From assembly GCF_000215955.2 (NCBI RefSeq), contig NZ_AFNV02000008.1:62001-126000 (forward strand): a stretch of DNA of 64,000 nt, given 5' to 3'. Numbering within the stretch: position 1 is the first letter of the stretch; every line of letters starts with the position of its first letter. This DNA comes from Salinisphaera shabanensis E1L3A. Its GTDB lineage: Bacteria > Pseudomonadota > Gammaproteobacteria > Nevskiales > Salinisphaeraceae. Below the pieces are notes generated by a model. It was not told where the DNA came from. It made no database searches and saw only the letters and a program-made list of their open reading frames with translations. Of this stretch, positions 29,240 to 47,277 are shown piece by piece. A program made the position numbers and the translations under genes.

Positions 29240-29552
29240 ACGACAGCGTGGCCCGTTTCAGCAGCACGCCGCACGGCCTGCCTCGCAGGAGTCGGGCGGC
29301 TTCTGCTAATATCCGCGCGCTCGGCGCGCCGGCCTCGGTGCCATATCGTATTCAGGTTGGCCGACCCGACCGAGCATAGCCGCGCCAACGCATTCGCGAT
29401 TGTCAGCTCGTGCGCCCACGGTTGCTGGCTCGGCGCTTGCTTACCCGAGAAGAAGACATACGCCCGGCGCTGTTAGATCCAGCGCAACGACACCGTCGCC
29501 GCGCCACACGGCCGTGCGGGCGCGCCGTGTCGTCACGCCAGCACGAGACACG
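29240..29552. other. Gene-free stretch upstream of the SulP transporter
   Basis: Contains an Arg-rich in-frame extension of the SulP reading frame that does not resemble the family. I see no clear promoter or RNA gene here. Confidence 0.5.
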
Positions 29553-31040
29553 ATGATTCAATCGATACGACAAACCTGGTTTTCCAACATTCGCGCCGAC
29601 GTGCTCGCCGGTACGGTGGTCGCCCTGGCGTTGATCCCAGAGGCGATTGCCTTTTCCATCATCGCCGGGGTCGATCCGAAGGTCGGCCTCTATGCCTCCT
29701 TCTGTATCTGCGTGGTGATTGCGTTCGCCGGCGGGCGCCCGGGCATGGTGTCGGCGGCCACGGGGGCGATGGCGCTGCTCATGACCACGCTGGTGGCTGA
29801 GCACGGCCTGCAGTATCTGCTGGCGGCGACCCTGCTTACCGGCGTGCTGCAGATTGTTGCTGGCGTACTACGCTTGGGCGAGCTGATGCGGTTCGTGTCT
29901 CGCTCCGTAGTCACGGGCTTCGTCAACGCACTGGCCATTCTCATCTTTATGGCGCAGCTGCCGGAGCTGACCGGCGTGACCTGGCATGTGTATGCCATGA
30001 CCGCGGCCGGTCTGGGCATCATCTATCTGTTTCCCTACGTGCCGGTCATCGGGCGCATGCTGCCGTCGCCGCTGATCTGCATTCTCGTGCTCACCGGCGT
30101 GTACATGGCCAGCGATCTGGGTATCAACACGGTCGGCGACATGGGTGAGCTGCCGGATACGTTGCCGGTCTTCCTGTGGCCCGACGTGCCGCTGAATATG
30201 GAAACGTTCTGGATCATCCTGCCGTATTCGATCATGTTGACCGTGGTCGGCCTGATGGAATCGATGATGACGGCCACGATCGTGGACGATCTCACCGATA
30301 CCGGCAGCGACAAGAACCGCGAATGTCGCGGCCAGGGCATCGCCAACATCGGCGCCGGCCTGCTGGGCGGCATGGCCGGTTGCGGCATGATTGGCCAGTC
30401 GGTGATCAACATCAAATCCGGCGGGCGGACCCGTCTGTCCACGCTCACCGCCGGCATCGTGTTGCTCGTCATGGTGGTGTTTCTTTCCGACTGGGTGTCG
30501 CTCATTCCCATGGCCGCACTCGTGGCGGTGATGATCATGGTCTCGATCGGCACTTTCAGCTGGGAGTCGCTGCGGGACATGCGCAAGCACCCGATGAGCA
30601 CGAATGTGGTGATGGTTACGGTGGTCGTCGTCGTGGTGGCGACCCACAACCTGGCGATTGGCGTGTTCGTGGGCGTGCTGCTGTCGTCGCTGTTCTTTGC
30701 CAACAAGGTCGGCCGGCTGCTTTATATCGGCAGTACCGAAACTGACGATGGGCGGTCGCGCGAATATGAAGTGGTCGGGCAGGTATTTTTCACCTCGGCC
30801 GAGCAATTCGTGGCCGGCTTCGATTTCAAGGAAGCGCTCGATCATGTGCGTATCGACCTGCGGCGCGCGCACTTCTGGGATATCACCGCGGTCGGCGCGC
30901 TCGACAAGGTCGTACTGAAATTCCGGCGCGAAGGCGCCGAGGTCGATGTGGTGGGGCTTAACGAGGCCAGTGCCACGCTGGTCGATCGTATTGCTGTGCA
31001 CGACAAACCCGACGCTGAGAAACTGCTCGGCGGCCATTAG
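29553..31040 (+). CDS. SulP-family anion transporter with STAS domain
   Basis: 495-residue inner-membrane protein. [21 protein letters not shown] is quoted in two parts as [11 protein letters not shown] and [10 protein letters not shown], the SulP N-terminal signature. There are about ten to twelve helices, a charged EC-rich loop around residue 250, and a C-terminal STAS domain (about 405-495). Family members carry sulfate, bicarbonate or dicarboxylates. It is followed 26 bases later by a tandem UspA protein, a common pairing in which the Usp may regulate the transporter. Confidence 0.93.
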
Positions 31041-31066
31041 CACCCACAAGAAATCGAGGAGATGTC

Positions 31067-31924
31067 ATGAGCGAGCGCCACGTCACCGCATGTATTGACG
31101 GTTCGGCTTATTCGCCCGCGGTGTGCGACGCAGCCGCCTGGGCCAGTCTGCGCCTGGGTATCGGGCTGACTTTCGTGCACGTCATCGACAAGGCCGGCCG
31201 AGTTGCCGAGTCCGATGTGAGCGGCCAGATCGGCCTGGGTTCGCGCGAACATCTGCTGGCCGAGTTGGCCCAGCTCGATGAACAGCGTGCCCGCCTGGAA
31301 CGCGAGCAGGGCCGGCTCATGCTCGAAGCCGCCTGTGAGCGCGCTGCTGCGGACGGCGTTGCCAATGCCGCATCACGCCAGCGCCATGGCGCGCTCGCCG
31401 AAACTCTGGTCGAACTCGAGGGTGCGACACGCCTGCTCGTGATCGGCAAACGCGGCGAGACGGCAGACACGGCGCACGAGCATCTCGGCTCGAATCTCGA
31501 GCGCGTGATTCGTTCGTTGCATTGCCCGATGCTGATCACGCCGCCCGGCTTTACCGCGCCCAAGCGGATTGTCGTCGCGTTTGATGGCAGTCGGACCTCG
31601 AAGGCGATGATCGAACGTATTGCTGCCAGTCCGCTGTTTGCCGATGTGGTGTGCCATCTGGTCTTTGTCGGTGAGGCCAGCGACGAATGCCGAAAGAAAC
31701 TGGACGACGCCAAGGCTGCGCTCGACCGTGTGTGTGCCCAAGTGACCATCGCCGTCCTCGACGGGGAAGTGGAAGCCAGTCTGCGAGCCTATGAGCAGTC
31801 CAACGATATCGACATGCTGGTTATGGGCGCCTATGGCCATTCGCGTATTCGGCATCTTCTGGTTGGCAGTACGACCACCGAGATGATTCGCCGCGCGACG
31901 CTGCCGGTGCTGATTCTGCGCTAG
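31067..31924 (+). CDS. Tandem universal stress protein (two UspA domains)
   Basis: 285 residues in two halves. The first (about 1-155) has ITACIDGSAYSP-like ATP-pocket features written here as VTACIDGSAYSPAVC. The second (about 163-285) has RIVVAFDGSRTSKAMIE and the nucleotide motif GAYGHSRIRHLLVGSTT near the C-terminus. It shares a transcript with SulP and is closed by a strong terminator. Confidence 0.92.
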   Translation: MSERHVTACIDGSAYSPAVCDAAAWASLRLGIGLTFVHVIDKAGRVAESDVSGQIGLGSREHLLAELAQLDEQRARLEREQGRLMLEAACERAAADGVANAASRQRHGALAETLVELEGATRLLVIGKRGETADTAHEHLGSNLERVIRSLHCPMLITPPGFTAPKRIVVAFDGSRTSKAMIERIAASPLFADVVCHLVFVGEASDECRKKLDDAKAALDRVCAQVTIAVLDGEVEASLRAYEQSNDIDMLVMGAYGHSRIRHLLVGSTTTEMIRRATLPVLILR

Positions 31925-31950
31925 CGTGCGTTAGCCGCAGGCAAGAAAAA

Positions 31951-31978
31951 GGGGCGATTTATCGCCCCTTTTTTATTT
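31951..31978. terminator. Bidirectional Rho-independent terminator
   Basis: GGGGCGAT (31951-31958) pairs with ATCGCCCC (31961-31968), with a T-run on the plus side and an A-run before the stem that serves the minus strand. It ends the Usp gene and the convergent alcohol dehydrogenase gene. Confidence 0.9.
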
Positions 31979-32016
31979 AAGCCGCAAGGCTGTGCTGCTG
32001 TGTCACGTAGCCTTTA

Positions 32017-33180
32017 TCACGGCGTCATCACCACCTTGATGCAACCGTCCTGTTTGGCATTGAAATTGGCATAGGCCTCCGGCGCTTCGGTGAGACCGTA
32101 GCGATGCGTGATGATGAAGGACGGATCGATCAGGCCTTGTTCCACAGTGTTCAGCAGCGGCTTGAGATAACCCTGCATATGGGTTTGCCCACCTTTGACC
32201 GATAGCGACTTGTTCATCAGCGCGTTGATCGCGAAGCCGTCGACTTTATCGGTATAGACGCCGGGTAGGGACAGCCGCCCGCCCTTGCGAACGGACATGA
32301 TCATTTCGTTGATCGCATGCGGGTGGTTGTCTTCGGTGGAATCCGCGGTGCGGCGTACCGCCTCTGGATCACCCTGACCGTGGGCCTCAGCGCCGACACA
32401 GTCGATGCCGCAATCCGGGCCGCGCCCACCGGTCATGTCCAGCAGCTTGCTGTAGACGTCTTCTTCTTCGAAGTTGATCACCTCGGCGCCGGCTTTTTCA
32501 CTGGCCAGCTTCAGGCGCTCGGGTACGCGATCGATCGCGATCACGCGGCCCGCGCCCATCATCCAGGCGCTGCGAATCGCGAACTGGCCGACCGGGCCGC
32601 AGCCCCAGATGGCGACCGTGTCGCCGGCTTCCATGTCGCACTGGTCGACCGCCTGATAGCCGGTCGGGTAGATGTCCGACAGGAACAGCAGTTGGTCGTC
32701 ACGCAGGTCGGACTCGACCTTGATCGGGCCGATATCGGCATAGGGCACACGCACGTATTCGGCCTGGCCGCCGGGAATGCCGCCCAGCAGGTGCGAGTAG
32801 CCGAACAGCGCTGCCGGCGAATGCCCCATTACTTCGGCCGCCTGATCGGCGTTCGGGTTGGAGTTGTCGCACAGCGAATACAGATGCTTGTTGCAGAAAA
32901 AGCAGCTGCCACAAGAAATGGTGAAAGGTACGACCACGCGGTCGCCTTTCTTCAGGTTGTTCACGGCCGAGCCGGTTTCCACAACCTCGCCCATGAACTC
33001 GTGGCCGAGAACGTCACCTTCCTGCATGCCGGCCATCAGACCGTTGTAGAGATGCAGATCGGAACCACAGATCGCAGTGGCGGTAATCTTGATGATCGCG
33101 TCGCGATCCTGCTGGATTTTCGGATCGTCGACGTTGTCGACGCGGACGTCGTGGGTACCGTGCCAGGTCAGTGCTTTCAT
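32017..33180 (-). CDS. Zinc-dependent alcohol dehydrogenase (formaldehyde-dehydrogenase-like MDR)
   Basis: 387-residue medium-chain dehydrogenase. The catalytic zinc site is [10 protein letters not shown] with [10 protein letters not shown]. The structural zinc cysteines are [15 protein letters not shown], and the NAD fold is [14 protein letters not shown]. The long C-terminal region with an Asp/His-rich insert near 270-290 recalls glutathione-independent formaldehyde dehydrogenases and related enzymes. Starting at ATG 33180 gives the normal N-terminus MKALTWHG. The adjacent Gfa-type gene supports a role in formaldehyde or short aldehyde metabolism. Confidence 0.88.
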
Positions 33181-33317
33181 GATGCGCTCGTTAGTTTCTC
33201 GAAACTGCAGGCATTCATCGTACACGCGGCGACTAGGGTCGGGAATGCGGATAGTCACTGAACTGCCGGAAGTAAAAGACTTTTGCGCGTTCGGCAGTAG
33301 TGCGCGCCGGGCGATAC

Positions 33318-33345
33318 CGCCGGCCCGCATGAACGCGGGCCGGCG
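33318..33345 (-). terminator. Strong hairpin between the Gfa-type gene and the alcohol dehydrogenase gene
   Basis: CGCCGGCCCGC (33318-33328) pairs perfectly with GCGGGCCGGCG (33335-33345). On the minus strand it lies ten bases after the Gfa-type stop. There is no T-run, so termination may be partial. Confidence 0.45.
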
Positions 33346-33354
33346 ATCGGTTTG

Positions 33355-33921
33355 CTAGAGCACGCCTTTTTGTTTCGCGGTATGGGTGGCGATCACATCC
33401 ATGAGCGTGGGTGATAGGCAGTCGTACGGTTCGAGGCCCTGGTCGTGCAGATGGCGCCGGATTTCGCCCATCTTGTTCGGATCGGTACCGGCTTCGATAA
33501 TCGACGATACGAATGCCGCGAACTGCGGCGGTTCCCAGCCGTCCTCATCGGACAGTTCGGTATGGATGAAGTCGAGACCGTAGAACGGGTGCTTGCTGTC
33601 TTCGATATGCCCGTACATGTGGGCGCCACAATCCGTACAGGCGTGGCGCTTGATGGCCGCGTCTTCGTTGACGACCTTGAGTTTTTTCTCGTTCTCGCTG
33701 ACCTTGACGCTGTCGCTGGGTACGACCGCAATCTGGGCAAACGTCGCACCTTCGGGTTTCCAACACATCGTGCAACCGCAGACATGGTTATGCGCACACT
33801 GCGATGAAACCTTGACTTGCACCGGATCGCTGCTGCACTTGCATTTCAGCGTGCCGCCGGAAAAATTGTCGGCGGCGGGCTTTATGCCTTTGTCCACGCT
33901 GGGATGTATCGTGATGCTCAT
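33355..33921 (-). CDS. gfa: Glutathione-dependent formaldehyde-activating enzyme (Gfa family)
   Basis: 188 residues with paired zinc-binding cysteines: [28 protein letters not shown] and [12 protein letters not shown]. This is the S-(hydroxymethyl)glutathione synthase family that speeds formation of the glutathione-formaldehyde adduct. It precedes a zinc alcohol dehydrogenase, a usual formaldehyde-removal pair, and lies near machinery for PQQ-dependent alcohol oxidation, which makes aldehydes. Confidence 0.9.
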
Positions 33922-34113
33922 GAATATTCCTCGTCTCGCAATGAATTCGAATTCGTTAATGGGCGTATTGCCTGTTATTGACCGGCGCGTACGCCGGTTT
34001 GCGATTCACACTACGCCGCTGGTCGATCAGGTCAAATACGACGTAAGCCGGGTGCTGTCTTTGCTTGCACCGGGTGAGGCGAGTGCCGGCAGGCGGCGGG
34101 GCGAGCGATAGAG

Positions 34114-35298
34114 ATGGCGCACACGCCCTTGTTTTTGCTTGTTGCGACCTGGCTGTTGGCCGGGTTGTTGTTCGAGGCCGTGGTCTGTGCCCGCCAGTGG
34201 CGGCATCTCGCCGGCGACGCGCCGGGTACGGGGTCGCGCAGCCGTTACGGCCAGCAGCGTGCGCTGTTTCAGTGGCTGGCCGGCGTCGAACGTATCGTAC
34301 GTGTGGTCCTGTGGCTTGCGACCGGTGCGCTTGGTGCTCTGTATGCAAGCGTCGAGGCCTATGGCGAAGCGGGTGCGCTGGTGTTCGTGGCCGTCTTCGC
34401 TATCGCCGATCAGCTGCTGTGCGAGGTACGTGCCTGGGCGCGCTGGTGGTTTGCCGAGCGTGCGGGCGGCATGTCGCGAAGTGGTATGGCCACCGTAGCC
34501 CTCGATAGCGGCCGCCGAGTCGCCCTCAACACCGTCATCGCGACGCTGGCGGCTGCATGGGTACTCTGGCCGTTTTCGTTCTGGGCATTCGGCTGGGCCT
34601 GGCCGATAAGCGGCGGGCTGTTGATTGCGGGGGCTGCGCTGTTGTTCTGGGCGCGCCCGAATCTGATCGCGCCGCTGTTCGAACGCTTCAAGCCGCTCGA
34701 GGCCGGCGAATTACGCCAACGCCTCGAGGCCATGATGCAGCGCTGTGGCACGCATCTGGAGCAGGTGCTGGTTGTCGATACCTCGCGTCGTTCACGTGTT
34801 GCCAATGCGTATTTCACGGGCCTGGGGCGCAGTAAACGGGTGGTGCTCTCGGATACGCTGATCGCGCAGTTGTCGGCCGCCGAACTGGAAGCCGTGATGG
34901 CCCACGAGCTGGGTCATTACCGCTGTGGTCATCTGCAGCGCTTCTACGCCAGCCAGGCTGCGTTGTTGTTCGGCGCTTATCTGGCGCTCGGAGCTGTCGC
35001 GGCGATGATGAATCTGTCGCCAGCGCCGGCTGAACTTGTGGTTGCAGCATATTTGCTTCTGCCTGCGCTCGGCTGGCCGCTGCAGTTTTGGCAGTCGGCC
35101 CGTCGGCGGCGCTATGAATACGAAGCCGATGCCTATGCAGCCGAACATGCTGATGCCGCAGCGCTGATCTCGGCTTTGGAGAAACTGCTCGCCAACAACC
35201 TGACCGCGCCGACCATGGATCGCTGGTACGCCGCGCTGTTTGCGACCCATCCGCCGGGCGCGTCGCGTCTGGCACGGCTGCATGCGATCGATGGCTGA
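34114..35298 (+). CDS. M48-family membrane metalloprotease
   Basis: 394 residues with several membrane helices and the zinc motif HELGHYRCGH near residue 267. The third ligand Glu is in YEYEADAYAAEH about 75 residues later. The layout resembles Ste24/CAAX protease 1-type M48 enzymes with N-terminal helices before the catalytic part. Its last codons overlap the start of the SoxYZ-like carrier gene by eight bases, an unexpected coupling between a protease and a redox relay protein. Confidence 0.9.
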   Translation: MAHTPLFLLVATWLLAGLLFEAVVCARQWRHLAGDAPGTGSRSRYGQQRALFQWLAGVERIVRVVLWLATGALGALYASVEAYGEAGALVFVAVFAIADQLLCEVRAWARWWFAERAGGMSRSGMATVALDSGRRVALNTVIATLAAAWVLWPFSFWAFGWAWPISGGLLIAGAALLFWARPNLIAPLFERFKPLEAGELRQRLEAMMQRCGTHLEQVLVVDTSRRSRVANAYFTGLGRSKRVVLSDTLIAQLSAAELEAVMAHELGHYRCGHLQRFYASQAALLFGAYLALGAVAAMMNLSPAPAELVVAAYLLLPALGWPLQFWQSARRRRYEYEADAYAAEHADAAALISALEKLLANNLTAPTMDRWYAALFATHPPGASRLARLHAIDG

Positions 35299-36112
35299 TC
35301 GCGGCCGACTACTGTCGCGGCCTGCTGTGTGCATCTTGCTGGCGGGGCTGTATGCGCTGAGTTGTGCGTCGGTTGCAAGCGCGGCCGGGGTCGATACGAT
35401 CGTTCACGATCCGCTGGAGTCATCGCGGTGGCGCTATATGGTGGCCCAGCATTTTCGTGACGCGCCGGTGGTATTCGACGAGCGCGTGCAGGTTCTCGTT
35501 CCGGATCACGCACAGGACCCGCAGGCCACCCCGGTACAGATCCGTGTGCAGGGCCTGAACGATGTCACCCAGATCCGGGTGATCGCCGACGCCAGCGCCC
35601 ATAGCAGGGTGCTGGATTATTTTCCGGCGAATGCCGCGCCCTCGATCGGCTTCAGCTTCGAGGTGGCCCAGGCCACGCCGCTGCGCGCGGCAGTGCGCAC
35701 GGGCGACGGCGTATGGCATATCGGCGGCGCCTGGGTGGACGGGCAGGGCGGCGGCTGTGCCGCGCCCAGCGTTACGCCAGCGGCGAGCGCCGATCTTGCA
35801 TTCGAGGGCCGTATTGAAGCGCGCAGCTGGGCTCGTGCCAACGACCGTCAGCGGCTCAAGTTGCGTGTCGTTGTGCCCAGGCAGACATCGGATATCGCGA
35901 CGCGCAGCACGGCCGTTGTCGAGGAAATCACCGTTCGCGATACGCAAGGCCGGCTTCAGGCGCGCCTCGTGCCCGGCAGCCCGCTTGCCCGCGCCAGCCT
36001 GTTCACGCTGGATATACCCAGCCGTGAGGCGTTGCGAATCGAAGCCCGCGACGACTGGGGCAATCGCTATCGAACACACGTTGCCATGAATGCCGAAGAC
36101 GAGGCGCCGTAA
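35291..36112 (+). CDS. Quinoprotein-associated SoxYZ-like fused carrier protein
   Basis: 273-residue exported protein with a Sec signal peptide (ILLAGLYALSCASVASA). An N-terminal SoxY-like domain is followed by a Cys-bearing GQGGGCAAPS near residue 155, corresponding to the SoxY swinging-arm Cys. The rest (about 170-270) is a SoxZ-like domain. Fused SoxYZ-like carriers of this kind are known near PQQ-dependent dehydrogenases, where the role is not settled. ATG 35291 lies inside the end of the protease gene, and the stop overlaps the next ATG. Confidence 0.85.
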   Translation: MADRGRLLSRPAVCILLAGLYALSCASVASAAGVDTIVHDPLESSRWRYMVAQHFRDAPVVFDERVQVLVPDHAQDPQATPVQIRVQGLNDVTQIRVIADASAHSRVLDYFPANAAPSIGFSFEVAQATPLRAAVRTGDGVWHIGGAWVDGQGGGCAAPSVTPAASADLAFEGRIEARSWARANDRQRLKLRVVVPRQTSDIATRSTAVVEEITVRDTQGRLQARLVPGSPLARASLFTLDIPSREALRIEARDDWGNRYRTHVAMNAEDEAP

Positions 36113-37056
36113 TGCGTGTTTTTCTCGCCTGTCTGCTGCTTGCCCTGAGCCCCGTTGGCGCCTGGGCCAGCGATTATTATGCGTTGACGCCACAACAAAT
36201 CGCCCCCGATACCTATGTGTTCATCGGCGCGCTTGAAGGATTCGATTTCGACAATCACGGCGCCGTGGCCAATAGCGGCTTCATCGTCAGCGAAAAAGGC
36301 GTGGTGGTGGTCGATACGGGCCCGTCCCGGCTCTATGGCGAAGCCATGCGCACGGCGATTGCAGAGGTTACCGACCAGCCCGTTGTACGGGTCTATATCA
36401 CCCATGCCCATGCTGACCACTTTCTCGGCAACAACGCTTTCGAGGATGTGCCGATCGCGGCACTACCGGCCACCGAAGAGAGTATTCGCAGTGCCGGCGA
36501 GGACATGGCGAGCCATCTCTACGATCTCGTCGGCGCGGCCATGCGCGGCACCGCGCCCGTGGTGCCGAACGAGACGCTCGCGCTCGACGCGGCCACGAGC
36601 ACGCGTATCGACTACGGTAATCACCGGCTCGAACTTATCGCCGCGGCGGGCCATAGCCCGGCCGATCTGATGATTCTGGATCGAACGACCGGCGTGCTCT
36701 TTGCCGGCGACGTGGTTTTCAATAATCGGGCGCCGGCCACGCCGCATGGCGATATCGCCGGTTGGCAACGGGCGCTTGCCGCGGCGGGCGAAAGCGGCTT
36801 CAGGATCGTGGTCCCCGGTCATGGGCCGGTCGCATACGATACGGCGCCGTTGGCCCAGACCGCGGATTATCTGGCCTGGCTGAAAGATCGGCTGCAACAG
36901 GCCGCCGCGCGTGGCGAGAGTGCTGCCGAGGTGATGTTCGAACCGCTGTCGCCGCGCTGGGCTGCGTTGGCAGTACAGCCGGCCGAGTATCGGCGTTCGG
37001 TAAGCTATCTCTATCCGGCCCTGGAGCGAGCGACGCTCGACCCGTCGCAAGACTGA
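36112..37056 (+). CDS. Quinoprotein relay zinc metallohydrolase (SoxH-like, metallo-beta-lactamase fold)
   Basis: 314-residue periplasmic hydrolase with a signal peptide ending at VGAWA. The metal site is THAHADHFLGNN near residue 101, GHSPADLM gives the next His, FAGDVVFNN the Asp and VPGHGP the last His. SoxH-like proteins pair with SoxYZ-like carriers in quinoprotein clusters. It overlaps the carrier gene by the TAATG junction. Confidence 0.88.
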   Translation: MRVFLACLLLALSPVGAWASDYYALTPQQIAPDTYVFIGALEGFDFDNHGAVANSGFIVSEKGVVVVDTGPSRLYGEAMRTAIAEVTDQPVVRVYITHAHADHFLGNNAFEDVPIAALPATEESIRSAGEDMASHLYDLVGAAMRGTAPVVPNETLALDAATSTRIDYGNHRLELIAAAGHSPADLMILDRTTGVLFAGDVVFNNRAPATPHGDIAGWQRALAAAGESGFRIVVPGHGPVAYDTAPLAQTADYLAWLKDRLQQAAARGESAAEVMFEPLSPRWAALAVQPAEYRRSVSYLYPALERATLDPSQD

Positions 37057-37077: not shown

Positions 37078-37809
37078 TCAGCGGCCCGGTGCACGGGTGA
37101 GCTTCATGCTGATATGCCCGCCGGTAATCATGCGCTGTTCGCTGGTCAGGCGTTCGTCGCGCTCCAGGCGGGCCAGGCCCACGCCCGGGCAATACCATTC
37201 GCGTTGCTCGATAGGGACCTCGGAGGGCGCGAACCCGGCACCGGCGCCCAGATGAAAATGCGCGGTGCCGACAGCCAGCACGCAGCGCTGGAAGCGTCCG
37301 GCGGGTACGTCCACGGCAACGTCGTCGGCCTCGATACGGTAGTCCAGCGTGACCGTATTGCCCGGCGCGTGTTCGCTGATGAAGGTCCGGGCGCGATCCA
37401 GCAGATAGGCATGGGCCGGCTCGCGCCAGCTCGTACCCACCGTCGCCGGTAGCGGCAGGATCTTGGTTTCGGGTTGATCCATGATCGGCGTGTGGCTGGC
37501 GACCGATTTAACGGCCACGCGGTAATAACCGTCATCACGCTCGGCCAGGTAGTAGCGGCTGCCGTTTTCGTTGCGACGGATCGCGATGCCCGGCTCGCCG
37601 GCAAAGCGGCGGCGCTCGACGTTCTCCATGGTGCGCGTGCTGCGTTCGGGGGCGGCCCCCTTGCGTTCGGTCACCACGCTGTACTCCCAGCGCAGGCCCG
37701 GTTCGAGCGGGTAAAGCGCATCGGCATCGGGCTGGGCGCCGCAGCCGACCAATACGGTGCCAAGCCATGCTGCGGACAATACGTTTGCCAGTCGGAATAC
37801 AGCGCGCAC
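37078..37809 (-). CDS. Putative lipoprotein of the ExbBD-like module
   Basis: 243 residues with a lipoprotein signal (LGTVLVGCGA; lipidated Cys near 23). The remainder looks beta-rich and has no family I recognise. Segments such as LYPLEPGLRWEYSVV and VDVPAGRFQRCVLAVG recall periplasmic beta-barrel-like lipoproteins that follow a W-x-Y start. It begins two bases after the preceding membrane protein ends, so it belongs to the same operon. Confidence 0.75.
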   Translation of the reverse strand: MRAVFRLANVLSAAWLGTVLVGCGAQPDADALYPLEPGLRWEYSVVTERKGAAPERSTRTMENVERRRFAGEPGIAIRRNENGSRYYLAERDDGYYRVAVKSVASHTPIMDQPETKILPLPATVGTSWREPAHAYLLDRARTFISEHAPGNTVTLDYRIEADDVAVDVPAGRFQRCVLAVGTAHFHLGAGAGFAPSEVPIEQREWYCPGVGLARLERDERLTSEQRMITGGHISMKLTRAPGR

Positions 37810-37811
37810 GG

Positions 37812-38324
37812 CTATTTCTCCGGCAGCATGGGTTCGGGCAGATCGCGCAGCTCGATGTTCTGATGATCGGGCGCAAAGGTATTGTCTTCGCTGACCACGC
37901 GCTCGCCGTCGCTGCGATCGGCCGTACCCATCTGCAGCTGGCCGTTGCGCATGGCGTCGCGTGCCCGCTCCAGCCGCGTATGCAGCTCACGGTCGTAGGG
38001 CAGGGTGAAGGCTCGTGGTATGCCGCTGGGCTCGTCGTTGACGATCGGTGTGATCCATAGATAGATCCGCCCGGCCGCGCCCTGGCTTTCATCCGGCTCG
38101 AGCACCGACGATGCATTGAGCAGAAAGTGATGCGGCAGCGACATACGCGCCGGCCAGCCGCGTAGATCCTGCAACGAATGCCAGGTGACGAAATACAGGG
38201 CGCTCACCAGCACGATACAGCCCAGGCGCACCCACAGTGGCCAGCCGCTGCGGATATTGAGCGCGAGCACCAGTACGCCGAGAGCCACATAGGCGCCGCC
38301 GAGCAGCCAGAGAGTCTGTGTCAT
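37812..38324 (-). CDS. Hypothetical membrane protein of the ExbBD-like module
   Basis: 170 residues with two N-terminal helices (about 5-22 and 30-47) and a hydrophilic C-terminal part of about 110 residues, probably periplasmic. I do not recognise a family. Its position between an ExbD-like protein and a lipoprotein suggests a role in assembling that complex. Confidence 0.75.
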   Translation of the reverse strand: MTQTLWLLGGAYVALGVLVLALNIRSGWPLWVRLGCIVLVSALYFVTWHSLQDLRGWPARMSLPHHFLLNASSVLEPDESQGAAGRIYLWITPIVNDEPSGIPRAFTLPYDRELHTRLERARDAMRNGQLQMGTADRSDGERVVSEDNTFAPDHQNIELRDLPEPMLPEK

Positions 38325-38364
38325 CGTCGGTCCTCGTTGTGTGTTGGCGCGTGCGAAGCGGGTG

Positions 38365-38961
38365 TCATTGCACGATCGACTTGGCCAGTGTGTTCACATT
38401 GCTCACCGAACCATCGGGGTTCACGGTAAAACGCACCGCCGTATGTTCCTGGCCGGGATAATCGAGCGCGACCTGATCCTTGAAGACAATCTGCAGGCGT
38501 GGGTTGATCCGGCTGACCACCACATCGGCGAGGATCGGCTGCCCGGTCTTCGAGTCGTAATACTGCAGATTGACCACATATTCGCCCGGCGCCCGCCCGC
38601 GGATGGTCACGATTTCCTGGTTGAGTTCGTTGGTGATGCGCTGGCCGTCGACGATCATTTCATCGTTGATCAGGCCGCGGTCGTCGCGATCGAGATTCAT
38701 CATCCCGGCTTCCGGATTCAGGTACCACACCTTGTCGCCGCCGGGGCCCTGCACCCACAGATCGACATCATCCGGACGCCCCGATTCCCAGGTTGCGGTG
38801 ATGATGTATTCCGCCTTGGCGGGGATTTCGCCGGTCTTCGCGGGCGGGTTCAGGAAGAACACCGCGATCAGGAACATGAAGGTAAAACCCAGCAGTGCAT
38901 TGAACAGCAGATCGGTAAACGGGTCGGTATCGCTATGGCGGCGTTTGCGCCGAAAGGCCAT
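38365..38961 (-). CDS. ExbD/TolR-like protein with a periplasmic DUF2135-like domain
   Basis: 198 residues. One N-terminal helix is preceded by DPFTDLLFNALLGFTF, matching the ExbD pattern PF-x-D in which the Asp carries protons (Asp17 here). The periplasmic part (about 45-198) is beta-rich with VDLWVQGPGG, LDRDDRGLI and GEYVVNLQYY, reminiscent of DUF2135/YfaP-like domains and unlike the usual ExbD fold. It starts seven bases after the ExbB-like gene. Confidence 0.8.
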   Translation of the reverse strand: MAFRRKRRHSDTDPFTDLLFNALLGFTFMFLIAVFFLNPPAKTGEIPAKAEYIITATWESGRPDDVDLWVQGPGGDKVWYLNPEAGMMNLDRDDRGLINDEMIVDGQRITNELNQEIVTIRGRAPGEYVVNLQYYDSKTGQPILADVVVSRINPRLQIVFKDQVALDYPGQEHTAVRFTVNPDGSVSNVNTLAKSIVQ

Positions 38962-38968
38962 GGCGCAA

Positions 38969-39712
38969 TCAGCCCAGGCGCTGGTCTTGGGCGAAGGTCA
39001 CAATGCGGGCCTGCAGGCGGTCGGCGGCGCGGTCGAGCAGCAGGTATTGCAGGCTCAGCACCATGCTCGTGGTCAGGCCGACGAGGGTGGTATAGAGCGC
39101 CACGCGCATGCCCTGGCTCATACCGACGAGCAATTGCTGAATCGCGGCCACATCGAAAGACTGGGTGCTGTTAACCGTGGCCAGCATGACGATGAAACCG
39201 ATCACCGTGCCCAGCAGCCCTAGCTTGATGAGGGCGCCGCAGATGAACCAGCCCATTTCGTGGGCGCCGGCCAGGCGCTCGCCCAGCACATCGACCACCG
39301 TATCCGGCGGTGGGCCATCGCGGTGGGAGCGCAACTGCAGCAGCGACGCAAGATAGGCGCTGGCGGCGCTTTCGGGCTGGATGCGGTCATCGACGGTGAG
39401 CGCGCCCGTATCGCTGCGCTGCAAGCGCGCGCCGTTGTCCACGTCACGTATCACCCGCTCGAAGCGCGCGGTCTCGCGCGAGAGCCAGGCGCTGCGTATG
39501 CCGCAATAGCCCCAGGTGACGATGAATATCAGGCTGATGAGCAGGCTCACGCGGGTCATGTCGCCAGCGACGAGCGTTGTCAGCACGTTGTATTGCTGGG
39601 CCACCCACAGCACGAAGACCAGCACGCCGGTCATGATCAGCCATTGCTGGAATACATGGCCCGAGCCGGCCCCGGGCCGAGCGGTTTTGAAGCGGGTCAG
39701 CGATACCGCCAT
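38969..39712 (-). CDS. MotA/TolQ/ExbB-family proton channel protein
   Basis: 247 residues with about four helices. The conserved C-terminal part is LIKLGLLGTVIGFIVMLATV followed by GMRVALYTTLVGLTTSMVLS, typical of ExbB/TolQ channel helices. Two extra N-terminal helices and a cytoplasmic loop (about 85-145) precede. With the ExbD-like partner it should use the proton gradient to drive motion in the envelope. No TonB-like gene accompanies it. Confidence 0.85.
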   Translation of the reverse strand: MAVSLTRFKTARPGAGSGHVFQQWLIMTGVLVFVLWVAQQYNVLTTLVAGDMTRVSLLISLIFIVTWGYCGIRSAWLSRETARFERVIRDVDNGARLQRSDTGALTVDDRIQPESAASAYLASLLQLRSHRDGPPPDTVVDVLGERLAGAHEMGWFICGALIKLGLLGTVIGFIVMLATVNSTQSFDVAAIQQLLVGMSQGMRVALYTTLVGLTTSMVLSLQYLLLDRAADRLQARIVTFAQDQRLG

Positions 39713-39798: not shown

Positions 39799-41087
39799 TC
39801 AGCCGAAGCTGTCGTGCACGATGTTGTGATACCACGAGCGCGCATAATCGGCCTCGGCCGCGCGCGTGTCGGGGTCGGCGGCCAGGGCTGAAATACCACC
39901 GGCGTTGGCAATGGCGGTCAGTGTATCGCCGTCGAGCGTATACACCTCGGTTACGCTGATGCCGTAGTCCGGTGCCACCAGGCTGTAGCAGGCGTTGATC
40001 AGTCTTGTCTCAGCGGCGGGTTCGCCGGCCAGTTGTCGCGCTATCGCATGCGCACACAGCTTGGCCTGCATGTTGGCCGCGTAGGCCGATTTGGGCATGG
40101 GCTCGGCGCGCGCAGCATCGCCAATGACATGCACGCCCTCGTGGCCCGGCACCGAAAAATCGTGGCCGGCGACCGGCACCCAACCGGCGGCATCGGTCAG
40201 CCCGGCATCGGCTGCCAGGCGGCCGGCTTTCTGGGGCGGAATGATATTGAGCACATCGGCTGAGTATTCGTCGCCGCCCGCGGTACGCACACGCTTGCTT
40301 GTGGCATCCACTTCGACCACCCGCGCCCCCCCGCGCGGCGCCCGCCGCGCCATTGCACGCGTTCGCCGTAGCGTGCGCCCCAGCCGGTGCGAAACAACGG
40401 TTCCTTGGAAAAATGATCCTTCGCATCGAGGATCAGCACATCGGCGTCGGGTCTGTGCTGCTTGAGGAAATGGGCAATCAGGCTGGCGCGCTCGTAGGGC
40501 CCGGGCGGGCAGCGATAGGGGTTGTCCGGCGTGCTGATAATCACGCGTCCGTTGTCGGGCATCGCGCGTAGCTGATCGCGCAGTGTGCGCAACTGGCGGG
40601 CGCCGCCGGGCCAGGCATGGGGAATGCGCTCGACATGGTCGGGGCCATAACCGTCGATTGCGTCCCACTCGAAATCGATACCGGGGGCGATAATCAGCCG
40701 GTCGCCGGCAATCGTTCGACCATCGCCCAGGCGGATACGGCGTGCCGTCGGCTCGACGCCATCGATATCGGCATGCACGACTTTGACTCCCGCCGCGCTT
40801 AGCCCCTCGTGGGTCTGGGTGATCGCCGACACTGGGCGTAGCCCGGCGATGACCGTATTGCAGAAGGGTCCGGTCACAAAACTGTCCTGGCGATCGACGA
40901 GCGTCACGCGAACCGACGGCGCAAACCGGCGCAGTGCAAGTGCGCAAGTGGCACCCGCGAAACCGCCGCCCGCGATGACCACCTGGGGTGGCGCCGCGCC
41001 GGCGCGACCTACCGGTAGGCCGAGCACACTCAGTGCAGCGGCGCCGGCGAGCCCGCGCAGCAGGCGTCGCCGGTTGTTACGGGGCAC
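39799..41087 (-). pseudogene. Flavocytochrome c sulfide dehydrogenase flavoprotein-like (FccB), frameshifted
   Basis: FccB-type FAD protein read in two frames. The first part from GTG 41087 has a Tat signal (RRRLLRG), the FAD motif VVIAGGGFAGATCALAL and the redox-Cys segment RCPPGPYERA. The second part in another frame continues with ARVVEVDATSK, NIIPPQKAG and HVIGDAARAEPMPKSAYAAN. The frames meet at seven consecutive C (40326-40332; G on the coding strand), where eight would restore one protein of about 428 residues, the family length. It overlaps the cytochrome gene by 11 bases. A sequencing error, slippage or true inactivation are all possible. Confidence 0.8.
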
Positions 41088-41400
41088 GACGATGTTCTTC
41101 GGCCGCGCTATCGGTAGCGGCGAAATAGTCGGCGAGCGCCGTGATCTGGGCGTCGTCGTAGGCTGGCGCGATTCGATTCATGATCGTGCCGGCGCCGTCG
41201 CGAAACGCCTGCATGCGTGCGATGAACATGGGTTTGTCCAGGCCGGCCAGAGACGGCACCGCGCCGGTGGACTGGCCTTGCGAGCCGTGGCAGGCGGTAC
41301 AGGCGCCGGCAAGCGTTTCGCCTTCGGCAGCGGCTGCACCGGCGCGCCCTACGCTGAACGCGATCAGCATCATTGTCACGGCGAGTACGCGATAGCTCAT
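41077..41400 (-). CDS. Single-heme c-type cytochrome (FccA-like)
   Basis: 107 residues with a signal peptide (VLAVTMMLIAFSVGRAGA), the heme site CTACHG near residue 34 and an axial Met in the C-terminal half (TIMNRIAP). It is the likely electron acceptor of the following FccB-like flavoprotein. ATG 41400 is preferred over the longer frame, which would lack a signal peptide at its start. Confidence 0.9.
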   Translation of the reverse strand: MSYRVLAVTMMLIAFSVGRAGAAAAEGETLAGACTACHGSQGQSTGAVPSLAGLDKPMFIARMQAFRDGAGTIMNRIAPAYDDAQITALADYFAATDSAAEEHRRAP

Positions 41401-41703
41401 CGTTTTGAAACTACGCTCGCCGCTGTCGCCCGGCAAGAGAGGGCGCTGTGCTTGGCAGTGCATCGTTGTCGGCGTTCGTGGAAGATCGTGTCGTCAGCCG
41501 CGTGCGCCGGCTGCCATTGTCCGCCTGCGACTATCCGCGGGCTTGCGTGCAGCAACCGTTAGCGGGCAATTTAGACTTGCAAACAACAATATATCCGCGT
41601 CCTGCGATCGAGCGTGGCGGGATTGCTAATAACTCGGTCGGCAAAACGTCGACCATGGCGACGGTGTCGAGGCGGTGCGACCGGGATACCGGCAGGAGAT
41701 TCC
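41401..41703. other. Divergent promoter region of the cytochrome and ABC transporter operons
   Basis: No gene seen. An AT-rich patch (about 41570-41597) offers likely sigma-70-type promoter sequence. GGAGA before 41704 is the ribosome binding site of the transporter gene. Confidence 0.5.
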
Positions 41704-43486: not shown

Positions 43487-44280
43487 GCGGGCTGCGTATC
43501 CATATTCGCGAGAAGCGCTTCGACGGCGCGCCGGTGCTGGGTGAATGCACCATCGACGCCGCGCCGGGCGAGTTCATTGCGCTGGTCGGCCCGTCCGGCT
43601 CGGGCAAGAGCACGTTGCTATCACTGGTCGCCGGTCTCGATGCAGACTACGACGGCGACATCACCTGGAACGGCGCGCCGCTATCCGCAGTCGGCGAATC
43701 GCCTGCGCATATGGGGATGATGTTTCAGGAACCGCGGCTCATGCCGTGGTTGAACGCGCTCGATAACGTGAGGCTCGCCGAAGCCGAACGTGTGGCCCGC
43801 GAGCCGGGCTATCAATCCAATGCGCCGCGGCTTCTCGAAGAGGTGGGGTTGGGTGAAGCGCAACACGTCTGGCCGAATCATCTATCGGGCGGCATGCAGC
43901 GGCGCGTGGCGCTCGCACGTGCGTTCGTCGTCGAGCCGCAGCTGTTGCTCATGGACGAGCCGTTCGTGTCGCTGGACATGCCCACCGGCAATCGCCTGCG
44001 GCGCTCGTTGCTGCGCTTGTGCGAACGTCAACGGCCGCTGGTCTTGTTCGTGACCCACGATTTGCGTGAAGCGTTGGCCCTGGCCGATCGCGTGCTGTTC
44101 TTTGGCGATACGCCGGCCCGCGTTCTGCTTGATCACCCGGTCGAGGGCGCTCGCGGCAAGGATCTGGAAAGCGCCGAGGTGGCCTCGGCCCAACAGGTGC
44201 TGCTCGCGCGTTATCCGCAGCTGCTCTCCGGCATACTCGACCCAAGCCAGGTACAGACTTACGACGAGGACACCGCATGA
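43483..44280 (+). CDS. NitT/TauT-type ABC transporter ATPase
   Basis: 265 residues with Walker A GPSGSGKST, signature HLSGGMQRRVALARAF and Walker B LLLMDEPFVSLD. Much upstream open frame exists, but the ATGA overlap at 43483 and the N-terminus MSGLRIHIRE fix the start. It ends in another ATGA overlap with the second ATPase. Confidence 0.92.
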   Translation: MSGLRIHIREKRFDGAPVLGECTIDAAPGEFIALVGPSGSGKSTLLSLVAGLDADYDGDITWNGAPLSAVGESPAHMGMMFQEPRLMPWLNALDNVRLAEAERVAREPGYQSNAPRLLEEVGLGEAQHVWPNHLSGGMQRRVALARAFVVEPQLLLMDEPFVSLDMPTGNRLRRSLLRLCERQRPLVLFVTHDLREALALADRVLFFGDTPARVLLDHPVEGARGKDLESAEVASAQQVLLARYPQLLSGILDPSQVQTYDEDTA

Positions 44281-45029
44281 GCCAAGCCGCCCTCAAAGTC
44301 GACGCGGTCAGTAAATCCTATGGCGCCGTGAAAGCCCTCGATACGCTGTCGCTGGCTGTCGAGCAGGGCGAGTTCGTGGCCCTGCTGGGGCCCAACGGCG
44401 CGGGCAAGAGCACGCTGTTTCAACTGCTCACGGGGCTTTTCGTGCCGGACGAAGGCGCGATCGAAGTGGCTGGATACAACATGCGTCGCGATTCGCGTGC
44501 GGCGCTGGCCAAACTCGGCGTCGTCTTTCAGCAACCCACGCTCGATCTGGACCTGAGCGTGGTCGCCAATTTGAAGTTTCATGCTCGCCTGCACGGCATG
44601 GGCGCCAAGGCGAAAGCGCGTATCGATGACGAGCTGGCACGCATCGGCCAAGCCGAACGCGCGAAAGACCCGGCGCGGGCACTGTCCGGCGGCAATCGAC
44701 GCAAGATCGAGCTGGCGCGTGCGCTGCTGCACGAACCGGCGTTGCTGCTTATGGACGAGCCGACCGTGGGCCTCGATCCCGGCTCGCGCGAGCTGTTGGT
44801 CGATTATGTACACAAACTCTGCGCCGAACGCGGCATGGGTGTGCTGTGGGCGACCCATCTGGTCGACGAGGCCGAGCGTGCGCACCGCGTGATCGTGCTG
44901 CACAAGGGCCAGCGCATTGCCGTGGATACGCCGCGTGCGTTGTGTGAACAAACCGATACCACTTCGCTGGGCGCAGCGTTTCTCGCCCTCACCGGCGAGG
45001 CACCCAAGAAAAAAGAGGAGACCGTTTGA
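44277..45029 (+). CDS. PQQ-associated ABC transporter ATPase (PedB-like)
   Basis: 250 residues with Walker A GPNGAGKST, signature LSGGNRRKIELARALL and Walker B LLLMDEPTVGLD, of the ABC-2 export/multidrug type. With the beta-propeller, binding-protein and permease genes that follow it makes the set found with PQQ-dependent alcohol dehydrogenases. The related PedA1A2BC of Pseudomonas putida supports lanthanide-dependent growth on alcohols. Confidence 0.88.
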   Translation: MSQAALKVDAVSKSYGAVKALDTLSLAVEQGEFVALLGPNGAGKSTLFQLLTGLFVPDEGAIEVAGYNMRRDSRAALAKLGVVFQQPTLDLDLSVVANLKFHARLHGMGAKAKARIDDELARIGQAERAKDPARALSGGNRRKIELARALLHEPALLLMDEPTVGLDPGSRELLVDYVHKLCAERGMGVLWATHLVDEAERAHRVIVLHKGQRIAVDTPRALCEQTDTTSLGAAFLALTGEAPKKKEETV

Positions 45030-46027
45030 TGCGTTTCAATCGATACAAACAAGTCCAGCTCGCCGTTGCAGCGGCCGTTCTTTCTGCCAGCCCGATGCTG
45101 TTTGCTGCCGGCACCGGCAATGTCTATGTTTCCAGCGAAGACGACGACGTGGTCACCGTCTTCGACGGCCAGAGCATGGACAAGATCGACACCATCGCGG
45201 TGTCGGAGCGCCCGCGCTGGCTGGCGTTTTCGCCCGATCACAGCACGCTCTACGTGGCGTGTGGCGATGAGGATTCGATCGATGTGATCGACGTTGCCCA
45301 GGGCAAGGTCACCGACCGGCTTACCGATATCGATGATCCGGAAATCTTCGCCATTGGCCCGGATGGCAAGCATCTGTATATCTCCAACGAAGACGATGCC
45401 CAGTTCACCGTCTACGACATCGGCGCCAAGAAAGCCGTCACCCAGATCGGCGTCGGCCAGGAACCGGAAGGCGTGCTGGTCACGCCTGATGGTAAGGCGG
45501 CCTATGTGACGTCCGAAGTGGCGAACATGGTGCATCGTGTGAACCTCGACAGCCATGAGATCGACGCCAATATCGTGGTCGGCAACCGGCCGCGGCGTTT
45601 TGCCCTGTCCGAGGACGGTCACACGCTGTGGGTGACCAACGAGCTGTCCGGCTCGGTATCGCTGATTGATACGCAGACCAACAAGGTCAGCGACACCATC
45701 GAGTTCAAGCCGCAGGGCTTTCGTCCGGAAGACGTCACACCCGTGGGTATCAAGTTGTCCGAGGATGGGCAGCACGCGTTCGTCACGCTCGGGCGGGCGA
45801 ATCACGTGGCGTTCGTGAACGCGAAAACGCATGACGTGGAGGACTATGTGCTGGTCGGCGACCGGGCCTGGGGCATTGCTCAGAGTCGCGACGGCAAACA
45901 GCTTTATGTCACCAACGGGTTGTCCGACGATATGTCGATCGTGGATATCGGCCAGCGCAAGACACTGCGATCGATCCCGGCCGGGCGCGTGCCGCATAGC
46001 GTGGTCATCGACACGGTCGCCGAGTAA
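45029..46027 (+). CDS. PQQ-catabolism-associated beta-propeller protein (PedA2-like)
   Basis: 332-residue exported protein with a signal peptide (AAVLSASPMLFAAG) and about seven YVTN-type repeats. Examples are VYVSSEDDDVVTVFDG, LYVACGDEDSIDVIDV and AYVTSEVANMVHRVNL. Asp/Glu-rich turns could bind cations. AGAGGAG precedes the ATG at 45029, which overlaps the ATPase stop by one base. Confidence 0.88.
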   Translation: MRFNRYKQVQLAVAAAVLSASPMLFAAGTGNVYVSSEDDDVVTVFDGQSMDKIDTIAVSERPRWLAFSPDHSTLYVACGDEDSIDVIDVAQGKVTDRLTDIDDPEIFAIGPDGKHLYISNEDDAQFTVYDIGAKKAVTQIGVGQEPEGVLVTPDGKAAYVTSEVANMVHRVNLDSHEIDANIVVGNRPRRFALSEDGHTLWVTNELSGSVSLIDTQTNKVSDTIEFKPQGFRPEDVTPVGIKLSEDGQHAFVTLGRANHVAFVNAKTHDVEDYVLVGDRAWGIAQSRDGKQLYVTNGLSDDMSIVDIGQRKTLRSIPAGRVPHSVVIDTVAE

Positions 46028-46029
46028 TC

Positions 46030-47277
46030 ATGGCGCACGGTGAAACGCTTTCGATAAACGCAGTATTGCGGCGTGCCGTGTTGCTGTGTCTTTGGGTAGG
46101 CGCAGCGCTGTGTCTGTTGCCAAGCGTTGCTGTCGCCCAGCAGGATCTCAAAACCTTCGACCTGGGCTATATCGGCTGGAACGACGACCCGCGCTATTCC
46201 GAAGCCCGGATCGAGCGCGAATACCAGGGCGAACCCTGGGGACGGCCGATCGACGGCGCGCGGGTAGCGATCGACGAAGCACGCTTTCCGGGGATTGCGG
46301 CCGGGGTGCAGTTCGGTCTCGATGAAGCGCTGGTTTCCAATACCCGCGAAGTGCTGGAGAACGTGCGCCGTATGCGAGATGCGGGTACGCGTTTCATCCT
46401 GCTCGATCTGCCCGCCGGCACCGTTTCGCGGGTGGCCGCCGAGTTCGCCGGCGACGACCTGACGTTGTTCAACGTGGCGGCGCACGACGATCGCCTGCGC
46501 GGTGCCCACTGCCAGGCGAATCTGCTGCATACGATCCCCTCGGATGCGATGCGCAACGATGCGTTGGCGCAGTATCTGGTTTCGCGGCAATGGAAGAACG
46601 TGTTGCTGCTGGTTGGTCCCGAGGCCGCAGACAAGGTGTTGGCAAAGTCGTTCGCGCGTTCGGCCAAGCGTTTCGGTTTGAATATCACCGGTACGCGTGA
46701 ATTCGTGCTGGGCAACAATCCGCGTGAACGCGACAAGAACAATCCCAAGCTGCTGACCTCCGGTATCGATTACGACGCGGTCTATATCGCCGATACCCAG
46801 AGTGAGTTCGCCCGCAACGCCAATTTCGCCATCCAGAAGCCGCGGCCGGTGGTGGGCAGCGGTGGTCTGGTGCCACAGGCCTGGCATTGGGCCTGGGTAC
46901 GCCACGGCGCACGTCAGCTCAACAACCGGCTGGAAAAGAAGGCCGACCGGCATATGACCGCCTACGACTGGGCCGCCTGGGTAGCCGTGAAAGCGGTCGT
47001 CGAAGCGGTGCAGCGCACCGACAGCACCGACTATGCCCAGCTTGCGGCCTATGTCCGCGGCGACGACATCAATCTCGATGGCTTCAAAGGGTATCGCATG
47101 GGCTTTCGTGATTGGGACGGCCAGCTACGCCAACCCATCTTGTTGGGCAGCGGCAACTGGGTGGTCGCTCGTGCGCCGCTCGAGGGGTTTCTGCACCCGG
47201 ACAATTATCTCGACACGCTTGGCTTCGACCCACGCGAATCCGCCTGCAAACTCACGACCGGCAACGAAGGTTCCTGA
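46030..47277 (+). CDS. PQQ-associated periplasmic binding-like protein (PedA1-like)
   Basis: 415 residues with a signal peptide ending at LPSVAVAQQ and a type I periplasmic-binding (branched amino acid receptor-like) fold. FDLGYIGWNDDPRYSEARI opens the mature protein, and DYDAVYIADTQSEFARN lies further on. It starts two bases after the propeller gene. Family members accompany PQQ-dependent alcohol dehydrogenases; the ligand is not settled. Confidence 0.87.
   Translation: MAHGETLSINAVLRRAVLLCLWVGAALCLLPSVAVAQQDLKTFDLGYIGWNDDPRYSEARIEREYQGEPWGRPIDGARVAIDEARFPGIAAGVQFGLDEALVSNTREVLENVRRMRDAGTRFILLDLPAGTVSRVAAEFAGDDLTLFNVAAHDDRLRGAHCQANLLHTIPSDAMRNDALAQYLVSRQWKNVLLLVGPEAADKVLAKSFARSAKRFGLNITGTREFVLGNNPRERDKNNPKLLTSGIDYDAVYIADTQSEFARNANFAIQKPRPVVGSGGLVPQAWHWAWVRHGARQLNNRLEKKADRHMTAYDWAAWVAVKAVVEAVQRTDSTDYAQLAAYVRGDDINLDGFKGYRMGFRDWDGQLRQPILLGSGNWVVARAPLEGFLHPDNYLDTLGFDPRESACKLTTGNEGS

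Follow-up and report, generated by a model that had tools for sequence, protein, structure and literature searches.

An ExbB/ExbD-like cassette with a DUF2135-type axle domain in Salinisphaera shabanensis, and its relatives in bacteria and phages

We analyzed a stretch of 64,000 nucleotides from Salinisphaera shabanensis E1L3A (contig NZ_AFNV02000008.1, positions 62,001 to 126,000), called the window throughout, and within it a run of four genes encoding an ExbB-like channel subunit (P0001), an ExbD-like axle subunit (P0002), a membrane protein (P0003) and a lipoprotein (P0004). The first three genes are a cassette that travels together in many bacteria and phages, while the lipoprotein is the trait of one group and lies outside the core cassette. 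We put at about even the chance that the cassette is a 5:2-type motor driven by the proton motive force and that, in this organism, it serves lanthanide-dependent alcohol oxidation. Anatomically the cassette belongs, as a variant, with the 5:2 proton motors treated in the available parts of PMC9389320, PMC12505986 and PMC12204202, and its subunits would presumably assemble in the same ratio.

A preliminary description of this DNA had proposed an undescribed proton-driven envelope machine. The anatomical part of that proposal stands (a channel family, an invariant aspartate, a pore threonine, a DUF2135 domain and a partner gene), and the proton drive is what we infer from it. Among the papers listed in our literature searches, which were not exhaustive, no description of the cassette was found, nor any paper on a phage ExbB/ExbD-like cassette.

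Subunits of the cassette and comparison with known motors

The four genes are all encoded on the same strand:

38969-39712, minus strand: P0001, ExbB/TolQ/MotA-like channel subunit of 247 amino acids, identified by a PF01618 match, an alignment of 42 relatives and profile matches to solved channel chains
38365-38961, minus strand: P0002, ExbD-like axle subunit of 198 amino acids, a transmembrane (TM) helix with Asp17 followed by a DUF2135 beta-sandwich with a predicted TerD-like fold
37812-38324, minus strand: P0003, membrane protein of 170 amino acids with two TM helices and a small domain, predicted to be an oligonucleotide/oligosaccharide-binding (OB) fold
37078-37809, minus strand: P0004, lipoprotein of 243 amino acids with the lipobox LVGC (by eye), a fourth gene typical of the bacterial loci called group A below

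From the ExbB-like gene to the lipoprotein gene, the intergenic gaps are 7, 40 and 2 bases; the last two are the measured values for what had been reported as two further envelope proteins at a spacing of 2 to 40 bases. Because the same four-gene order is present in 11 of 11 other loci among 60 relatives of this genome, the genes are not chance open reading frames.

P0001 matches PF01618, the MotA/TolQ/ExbB channel family, with an E-value of 2.8e-9 and a score of 37.2 bits, where the cut-off is 22.9. Residues G165, G168, T169, T208 and T209 are kept in at least 90% of the 42 aligned rows, and we take these threonines and glycines to be positions of the ion path. The channel profile built from the 42 relatives also matches solved chains of the MotA/TolQ/ExbB type, with best E-values of 1.1e-6 to 1.4e-5.

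All 89 axle sequences compared, bacterial and phage alike, have Asp17, Trp58, Asp65, Asp67, Asp93, Asp94 and Glu116; Asp100 is kept in 83 of them and Asn114 in 86. Asp17 aligns in register with the aspartate of four canonical ExbD/TolR proteins from the same genome. The axle thus keeps the ExbD-type membrane aspartate, which would carry protons; together with the above-threshold channel match, this register bears out the assignment of the first two genes to an ExbB/ExbD-like module.

The periplasmic part of the axle had been called DUF2135-like, and profile comparisons show that the name is right. On its own, P0002 has no Pfam match at E-values up to 1, and DUF2135 (PF09906) is matched at that level by 24 of the 89 axle relatives, the best at 0.0014. 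The axle profile aligns to a DUF2135 profile, built from 15 of 17 DUF2135 loci, with a probability of 97.3 and an E-value of 1.6e-11 over 111 columns unrealigned or 71 realigned. Against the three other cassette proteins, the same axle profile gave probabilities of 0.9, 1.3 and 0.5, and an hhalign control with two unrelated profiles (the lipoprotein and the TM protein) gave 11.0. Against the four canonical ExbD/TolR proteins the probability was 3.7, with just 21 columns around the helix aligned; the periplasmic part is unlike that of ExbD or TolR, as the preliminary description had it. Specifically, P0002 has no Pfam match to the ExbD/TolR domain, and ExbD is absent from 25 of 52 families examined for the 89 relatives; nor was an OmpA-like peptidoglycan-binding domain, as in axles of the MotB/ZorB type, found in P0002 or in the same 25 of 52 families.

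The predicted structure of the axle (mean predicted local distance difference test score, pLDDT, of 90.4) consists of a TM helix and a beta-sandwich. In a structure alignment, five entries matched it at Z-scores of 9.6 to 11.0 (3ibz, 2qz7, 2qng, 9a6r and 7jtk), followed by the next at 6.1; the titles of 3ibz and 2qz7 are TerD-like, that of 2qng is unknown function and that of 7jtk is radial spoke. For TerD the fold Z-score is 11.0, at 4.5 A over 138 residues, whereas the probability against a TerD sequence profile (from 11 of 25 TerD loci) is 0.6. TerD was rejected on this value as the sequence family of the axle, and we therefore claim only a TerD-like fold. The DUF2135 and TerD profiles align to each other with a probability of 20.8. 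No PF02342 (TerD) protein was found in 21 near-relative genomes and no PF09906 (DUF2135) protein in 41. Foldseek gave no match in the PDB at an E-value of 0.001 or less for the axle or P0003 models, and a PDB sequence search with P0002 alone found none; PDB searches with the axle, TM-protein and lipoprotein profiles had best E-values of 0.15, 0.23 and 0.068. Seven viral predicted structures match the axle model at an E-value of 0.001 or less, mostly as parts of longer proteins. The invariant acids common to the axle and DUF2135 hint at a site for a metal or ligand, with the look of a Ca2+/Ln3+ type.

The model of P0003 (mean pLDDT 85.4) has two TM helices and a small, presumably periplasmic domain, for which OB folds are the best matches, with Z-scores up to 6.8 over 74 residues. 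This is a middling score for a predicted structure, and the resemblance may reflect a common arrangement only. A sequence LPxPxLPEK near the C-terminus of P0003 is common to ten relatives. In P0004, a signal sequence ends in the lipobox, again as judged by eye.

The cassette resembles ExbBD and TolQR in its ExbB-like ring subunit with conserved motifs and in the register of the axle aspartate, and by analogy it would work like ExbBD. It differs from them in the DUF2135 domain of the axle and in having its own two-helix partner without TonB or TolA. TonB and TolA models had no match in P0003 or P0004 (the rest of the genome was not searched for TonB), and the tonB_Cterm match of P0002 is below threshold, at an E-value of 0.11 and 12.8 bits against a cut-off of 27.1. 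Because the tests of the axle domain and of the transducer both fail, the cassette falls outside the Ton and Tol systems; a canonical ExbBD/TolQR identity was rejected for the difference in the axle domain.

The nearest published parallel that we found is the set of vWA motor-driven transducers in the available part of PMC12204202, where vWA genes take the place of tolR or exbD. As in the cassette, a non-canonical periplasmic domain is carried on an axle-type helix beside a TolQ-like ring, in Proteobacteria. The cassette differs from the systems presented there in carrying DUF2135 on the axle, in having vWA-FHA as a separate gene (and in one bacterial branch only) and in being carried by phages. 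The term 'DUF' is absent from the main text of PMC12204202; the DUFs named in the part of PMC12505986 available to us are DUF3450 and DUF2341.

With ZorAB of Zorya the cassette shares a ring subunit of the MotA/ExbB type, with weak partial ZorA matches covering the channel part only. Unlike Zorya, the cassette is carried by phages, and its ring subunit has 247 residues against 383 to 1063 positions in the ZorA profiles. The likeness being confined to the channel part, Zorya was rejected. In a PADLOC scan confined to the four cassette proteins, the axle, the TM protein and the lipoprotein matched no model. YfaP and other DUF2135 proteins have a domain homologous to that of the axle, with DxD, Glu and PGxY motifs. 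In 15 of them, inspected by eye over roughly 180 residues ahead of the domain, no ExbD-type Asp helix is seen, whereas in the cassette the domain forms the end of the putative motor axle.

Occurrence in bacteria and phages

The ExbD-like gene was found in 12 of 61 genomes (the genome of the window and its 60 relatives) and in 31 of 274 genomes sampled from the class. A scan of named genomes gave at least 540 relatives, of which the best 80 make up the bacterial loci analyzed here. The ExbB gene is present in 79 of these 80 loci, the ExbD gene and the TM protein gene in all 80, and the lipoprotein gene in 52; the sole locus without ExbB (L037) begins at the ExbD gene. Two of the 80 are metagenome-assembled genomes placed in Myxococcota and Nitrospirota. 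Two Azospirillum plasmid loci contain the first three genes, with no lipoprotein relative found, and each of these plasmids holds a second match. Within the best 80 of at least 540, the ExbD closest to that of the window, at 91%, comes from a record titled Endozoicomonas sp. G2_2 (L032), a name that may be wrong.

Among 50,697 phage records, 27 contain the ExbD-like gene. These correspond to 19 phage names, some with duplicate records, and all are Rhizobium or Sinorhizobium phages; the Azospirillum query finds 10 phage records. IMG/VR contributed a further 107 relatives, 80 of which were kept and combined with four isolated Rhizobium phages into a set of 84 viral loci, many of them near-copies. 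Profiles seeded with bacterial and phage sequences found ExbD in every one of the 84 loci, the TM protein in 83 and ExbB in 82, with all three genes in order on one strand in 81. In the three others, L116, L172 and L183, the contig is short and the cassette lies at one end of it. Because such mixed seeding is partly circular, we repeated the counts with bacteria-only profiles. At E-values below 0.001 these recognized ExbD in all 84 loci, ExbB in 81 of them and the TM protein in 73, with no match elsewhere in the loci; the ExbB of phage 16-3 is weak in this comparison (E-value 0.26). The cassette genes are the sole genes common to most of the viral loci, being present in 84, 80 and 66 of them, and the next family occurs in 11.

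A hand-picked 28 of the 80 viral records, which may be fragments, included terminase PF17289 in 6 (4 above cut-off) and the T4 capsid family PF07068 in 10. The ExbB versions of the four isolated phages have 113 to 148 residues, with the cytoplasmic loop almost gone, and other viral versions mostly have 150 to 180. In PHROGs there was nothing below an E-value of 0.17 for P0001 to P0004, and one of ten cassette proteins from phages has matches, to families without a known function.

The genes beside the viral cassettes vary. A SbmA/BacA-like gene follows the cassette in seven loci (L112, L113, L118, L124 and L169 to L171); this transporter was confirmed at L112 9250-10530 and at L170 9194-10165, with ClpS in between in L112. 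A trypsin-like protease follows in eight loci (confirmed in L181), and an M15 peptidase lies upstream in seven marine-type loci, several of them near-identical (confirmed in L151). In Rhizobium phage 16-3 (L193 5244-8132), the cassette genes p038, p040 and p042 lie beside the trypsin-like protease p036, and the immX genes are in the same stretch.

Gene neighborhoods and the lanthanide link

We split the bacterial branch of the ExbD tree into branch B, with 30 loci (support 100/99 in the reduced set), and the rest, group A, with 50 loci including the window; for twelve loci outside the reduced tree, shared peptides decided the assignment. The rows of group A do not make up a single branch of the tree, and branch B sits among them. 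The lipoprotein gene is present in 48 of the 50 group A loci (it is missing from L039 and L051, both short contigs) and in 4 of the 30 branch B loci (L048, L056, L062 and L109, titled Alphaproteobacteria).

Genes of the pyrroloquinoline quinone (PQQ) cluster separate the two sets. At least one of seven PQQ-cluster families lies within 8 kilobases in 29 of the 32 group A loci of full length (the exceptions are L035, L041 and L054) against 2 of 18 in branch B (L068 and L106), with a Fisher P of 2.5e-8 that is uncorrected for relatedness; the seven families were picked as frequent around the same 80 loci, and related genomes are not independent. PedA1-, PedA2- and PedC-type genes are all three present in 15 of the 32 group A loci and in none of the 18. 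Thus, the quinoprotein link previously proposed for the cassette holds in group A and fails in branch B and in phages, whose copies have other surroundings. Widespread occurrence with no such link, named beforehand as what would speak against the proposal, does apply to the core but not to the group with the lipoprotein, which includes the window.

Of the cassette-adjacent PQQ dehydrogenases with about 40% identity or more to the query and a readable motif, all 16 have Asp-x-Asp (WDFD or WDYD), counting twice-fetched loci once; a few pieces were unreadable. We take Asp-x-Asp to mark a PQQ dehydrogenase of the lanthanide type. Across the 61 genomes, a PQQ dehydrogenase scoring at least 730 bits is present in 12 of 12 with the cassette versus 7 of 49 without it, and a PedA1-like protein of at least 270 bits in 10 of 12 versus 3 of 49, at thresholds that were set after the lists were known. 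In the genome of the window, an Asp-x-Asp PQQ dehydrogenase is encoded on another contig.

The flanks of the cassette are as they had been described, with SoxYZ-like and SoxH-like genes on one side and FccA- and FccB-like genes on the other, FccB being split in the window. The neighboring features are:

35240-36112, plus strand: SoxYZ-like carrier of the quinoprotein relay (TIGR04557, E-value 3.6e-32, below cut-off at 111.5 versus 140 bits)
36112-37056, plus strand: SoxH-like metallohydrolase of the quinoprotein relay (TIGR04558, E-value 6.4e-120, above cut-off)
39799-41087, minus strand: FccB of a flavocytochrome c pair, with FCSD_central and FCSD-flav_bind in different frames
41077-41463, minus strand: FccA-like cytochrome of the flavocytochrome c pair
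44277-45029, plus strand: PedB homologue, ATP-binding cassette (ABC) system of the lanthanide-importer type
45026-46027, plus strand: PedA2 homologue, same type of ABC system
46030-47277, plus strand: PedA1 homologue, same type of ABC system
47281-48087, plus strand: PedC homologue, same type of ABC system

The last four form a complete PedA1A2BC homologue in one run, and the PedB, PedA2, PedA1 and PedC proteins match TIGR03864, TIGR03866, TIGR03863 and TIGR03861, all above the curated cut-offs. According to the available part of PMC6839425, the PedA1A2BC transporter of Pseudomonas putida is needed for growth at low La3+; the outer-membrane step of the lanthanide route in P. putida KT2440 is termed unresolved in the part of PMC12997753 available to us. 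In that review of the ped cluster, ExbB and ExbD are absent from the main text. Two genes for TonB-dependent receptors (50389-52587 and 53734-56082) lie near the PedA1A2BC homologue, the second with a distant match to PqqU (E-value 1.5e-31, 109.5 bits where the cut-off is 1200).

The nearest relative of the window, G008 (locus L021), shares with it the order SoxYZ, SoxH, cassette, FccB, FccA and PedB-PedA2-PedA1. The FccB-like gene, which spans two reading frames in the window through a frameshift or an assembly error, has both halves in one frame in this relative. Upstream of SoxYZ, G008 has a PQQ dehydrogenase (L021 1249-2889) where the window has other genes (29400-35298); these, which include an M48 peptidase (34114-35298) and formaldehyde genes, have no match in L021. 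At 32017-33921, near the quinoprotein relay, the window encodes an S-(hydroxymethyl)glutathione synthase, which passes its cut-off, and an FdhA-like dehydrogenase, which does not.

From the observed anatomy, conservation and neighborhoods we infer an assembly, a flow of protons, a direction of work and a target. ExbB-like subunits would form a ring in the inner membrane and two ExbD-like helices the axle, with Asp17, to judge by its conservation, carrying protons. Proton flow would move the DUF2135 domain, which would act with the two-helix OB-fold protein on a partner in the envelope. The core may be a general energizer whose neighbors change by lineage: the lipoprotein and quinoprotein/lanthanide genes in the group of the window, cell-wall and vWA-FHA genes in the other branch, and SbmA/BacA-like, serine-protease or cell-wall peptidase genes in some phages. 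In the window, we think that the most probable task of the motor is to drive an envelope step of lanthanide-dependent alcohol oxidation: it could move or deliver Ln3+ or a carrier, or mature the periplasmic system.

Several findings weigh against this reading, in addition to the choice of families and thresholds noted above. A lanthanide role cannot be the core function, because branch B and the phages are without the quinoprotein link. Asp-x-Asp enzymes occur without the cassette in six genomes (G003, G006, G032, G038, G039 and G040), so the cassette is not required for them. Seven more distant quinoproteins beside the cassettes of relatives read WGYD, and a PQQ dehydrogenase was sought in the window and none was found. 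The metal site is a putative one, read from the invariant acids. As for the phage cassettes, the TM proteins of the isolated phages are weak with the bacterial profile (E-values of 0.012, 0.014 and 0.044, and one with no match), and P0003 as a query finds no phage record.

Alternative functions and significance

Somewhat unlikely, in our judgment, is that the motor maintains the cell wall or outer membrane in a role like that of Tol-Pal, with the DUF2135 domain gripping peptidoglycan or an outer-membrane partner and the quinoprotein neighbors sharing regulation only. Branch B fits such a role: an L,D-transpeptidase gene is present in 24 of its 30 loci, DUF302 in 18 and vWA-FHA in 16, and in L076 the transpeptidase gene ends five bases before ExbB. 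The M15 peptidase upstream of the seven marine-type viral cassettes points the same way. However, no L,D-transpeptidase of the branch B kind was found in the 50 group A loci, and no peptidoglycan-binding family in P0002 or among the 25 of 52 families examined for its 89 relatives.

We think it decidedly improbable that the cassette is a phage-derived envelope module, altering the host envelope or blocking superinfection, that bacteria later domesticated. The ExbD tree places 69 of its 70 bacterial rows on a single supported branch surrounded by viral diversity, and joins the Azospirillum row to phage 16-3; the varied gene neighborhoods of the 27 phage records and the 107 IMG/VR relatives would also suit such an origin. 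The tree is midpoint-rooted, however, and has long branches, so that direction is not readable from it and we claim no direction of transfer. In addition, the group A copies lie among metabolic genes, and the absence of PADLOC matches to the axle, TM protein and lipoprotein speaks against a module of this kind.

It is very unlikely that the cassette is a ligand- or metal-gated proton channel for sensing or signaling that does no mechanical work, an idea favored by the short ExbB of the isolated phages with its reduced loop, by the invariant acidic cluster in the periplasmic domain and by histidine-kinase genes near 21 of the 30 branch B loci versus 2 of the 50 in group A.

Our preferred reading remains a proton-driven motor that in the window serves lanthanide-dependent alcohol oxidation. 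It has a bolder form, which we consider unlikely: a new class of proton motor in phages and Proteobacteria, whose axle of DUF2135 type and TerD fold binds a metal (Ca2+ or Ln3+), energizing a TonB-free lanthanide step at the outer envelope in the lipoprotein group and re-engineering the host envelope in phages.

The available part of PMC12204202 credits the known motors of this kind with driving motility, nutrient import, membrane stabilization, secretion and phage defense. A different working domain, in a three-gene unit kept in bacteria and in many phages, would point to a role for the proton gradient that has yet to be studied. The cassette also provides a context for DUF2135, a term that was not found in our literature search. 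In the group of the window, where it occurs with a homologue of the lanthanide importer and with alcohol dehydrogenases of the lanthanide type, the cassette is a candidate for the missing part of the outer-membrane metal route, as that route is presented in the available part of PMC12997753.

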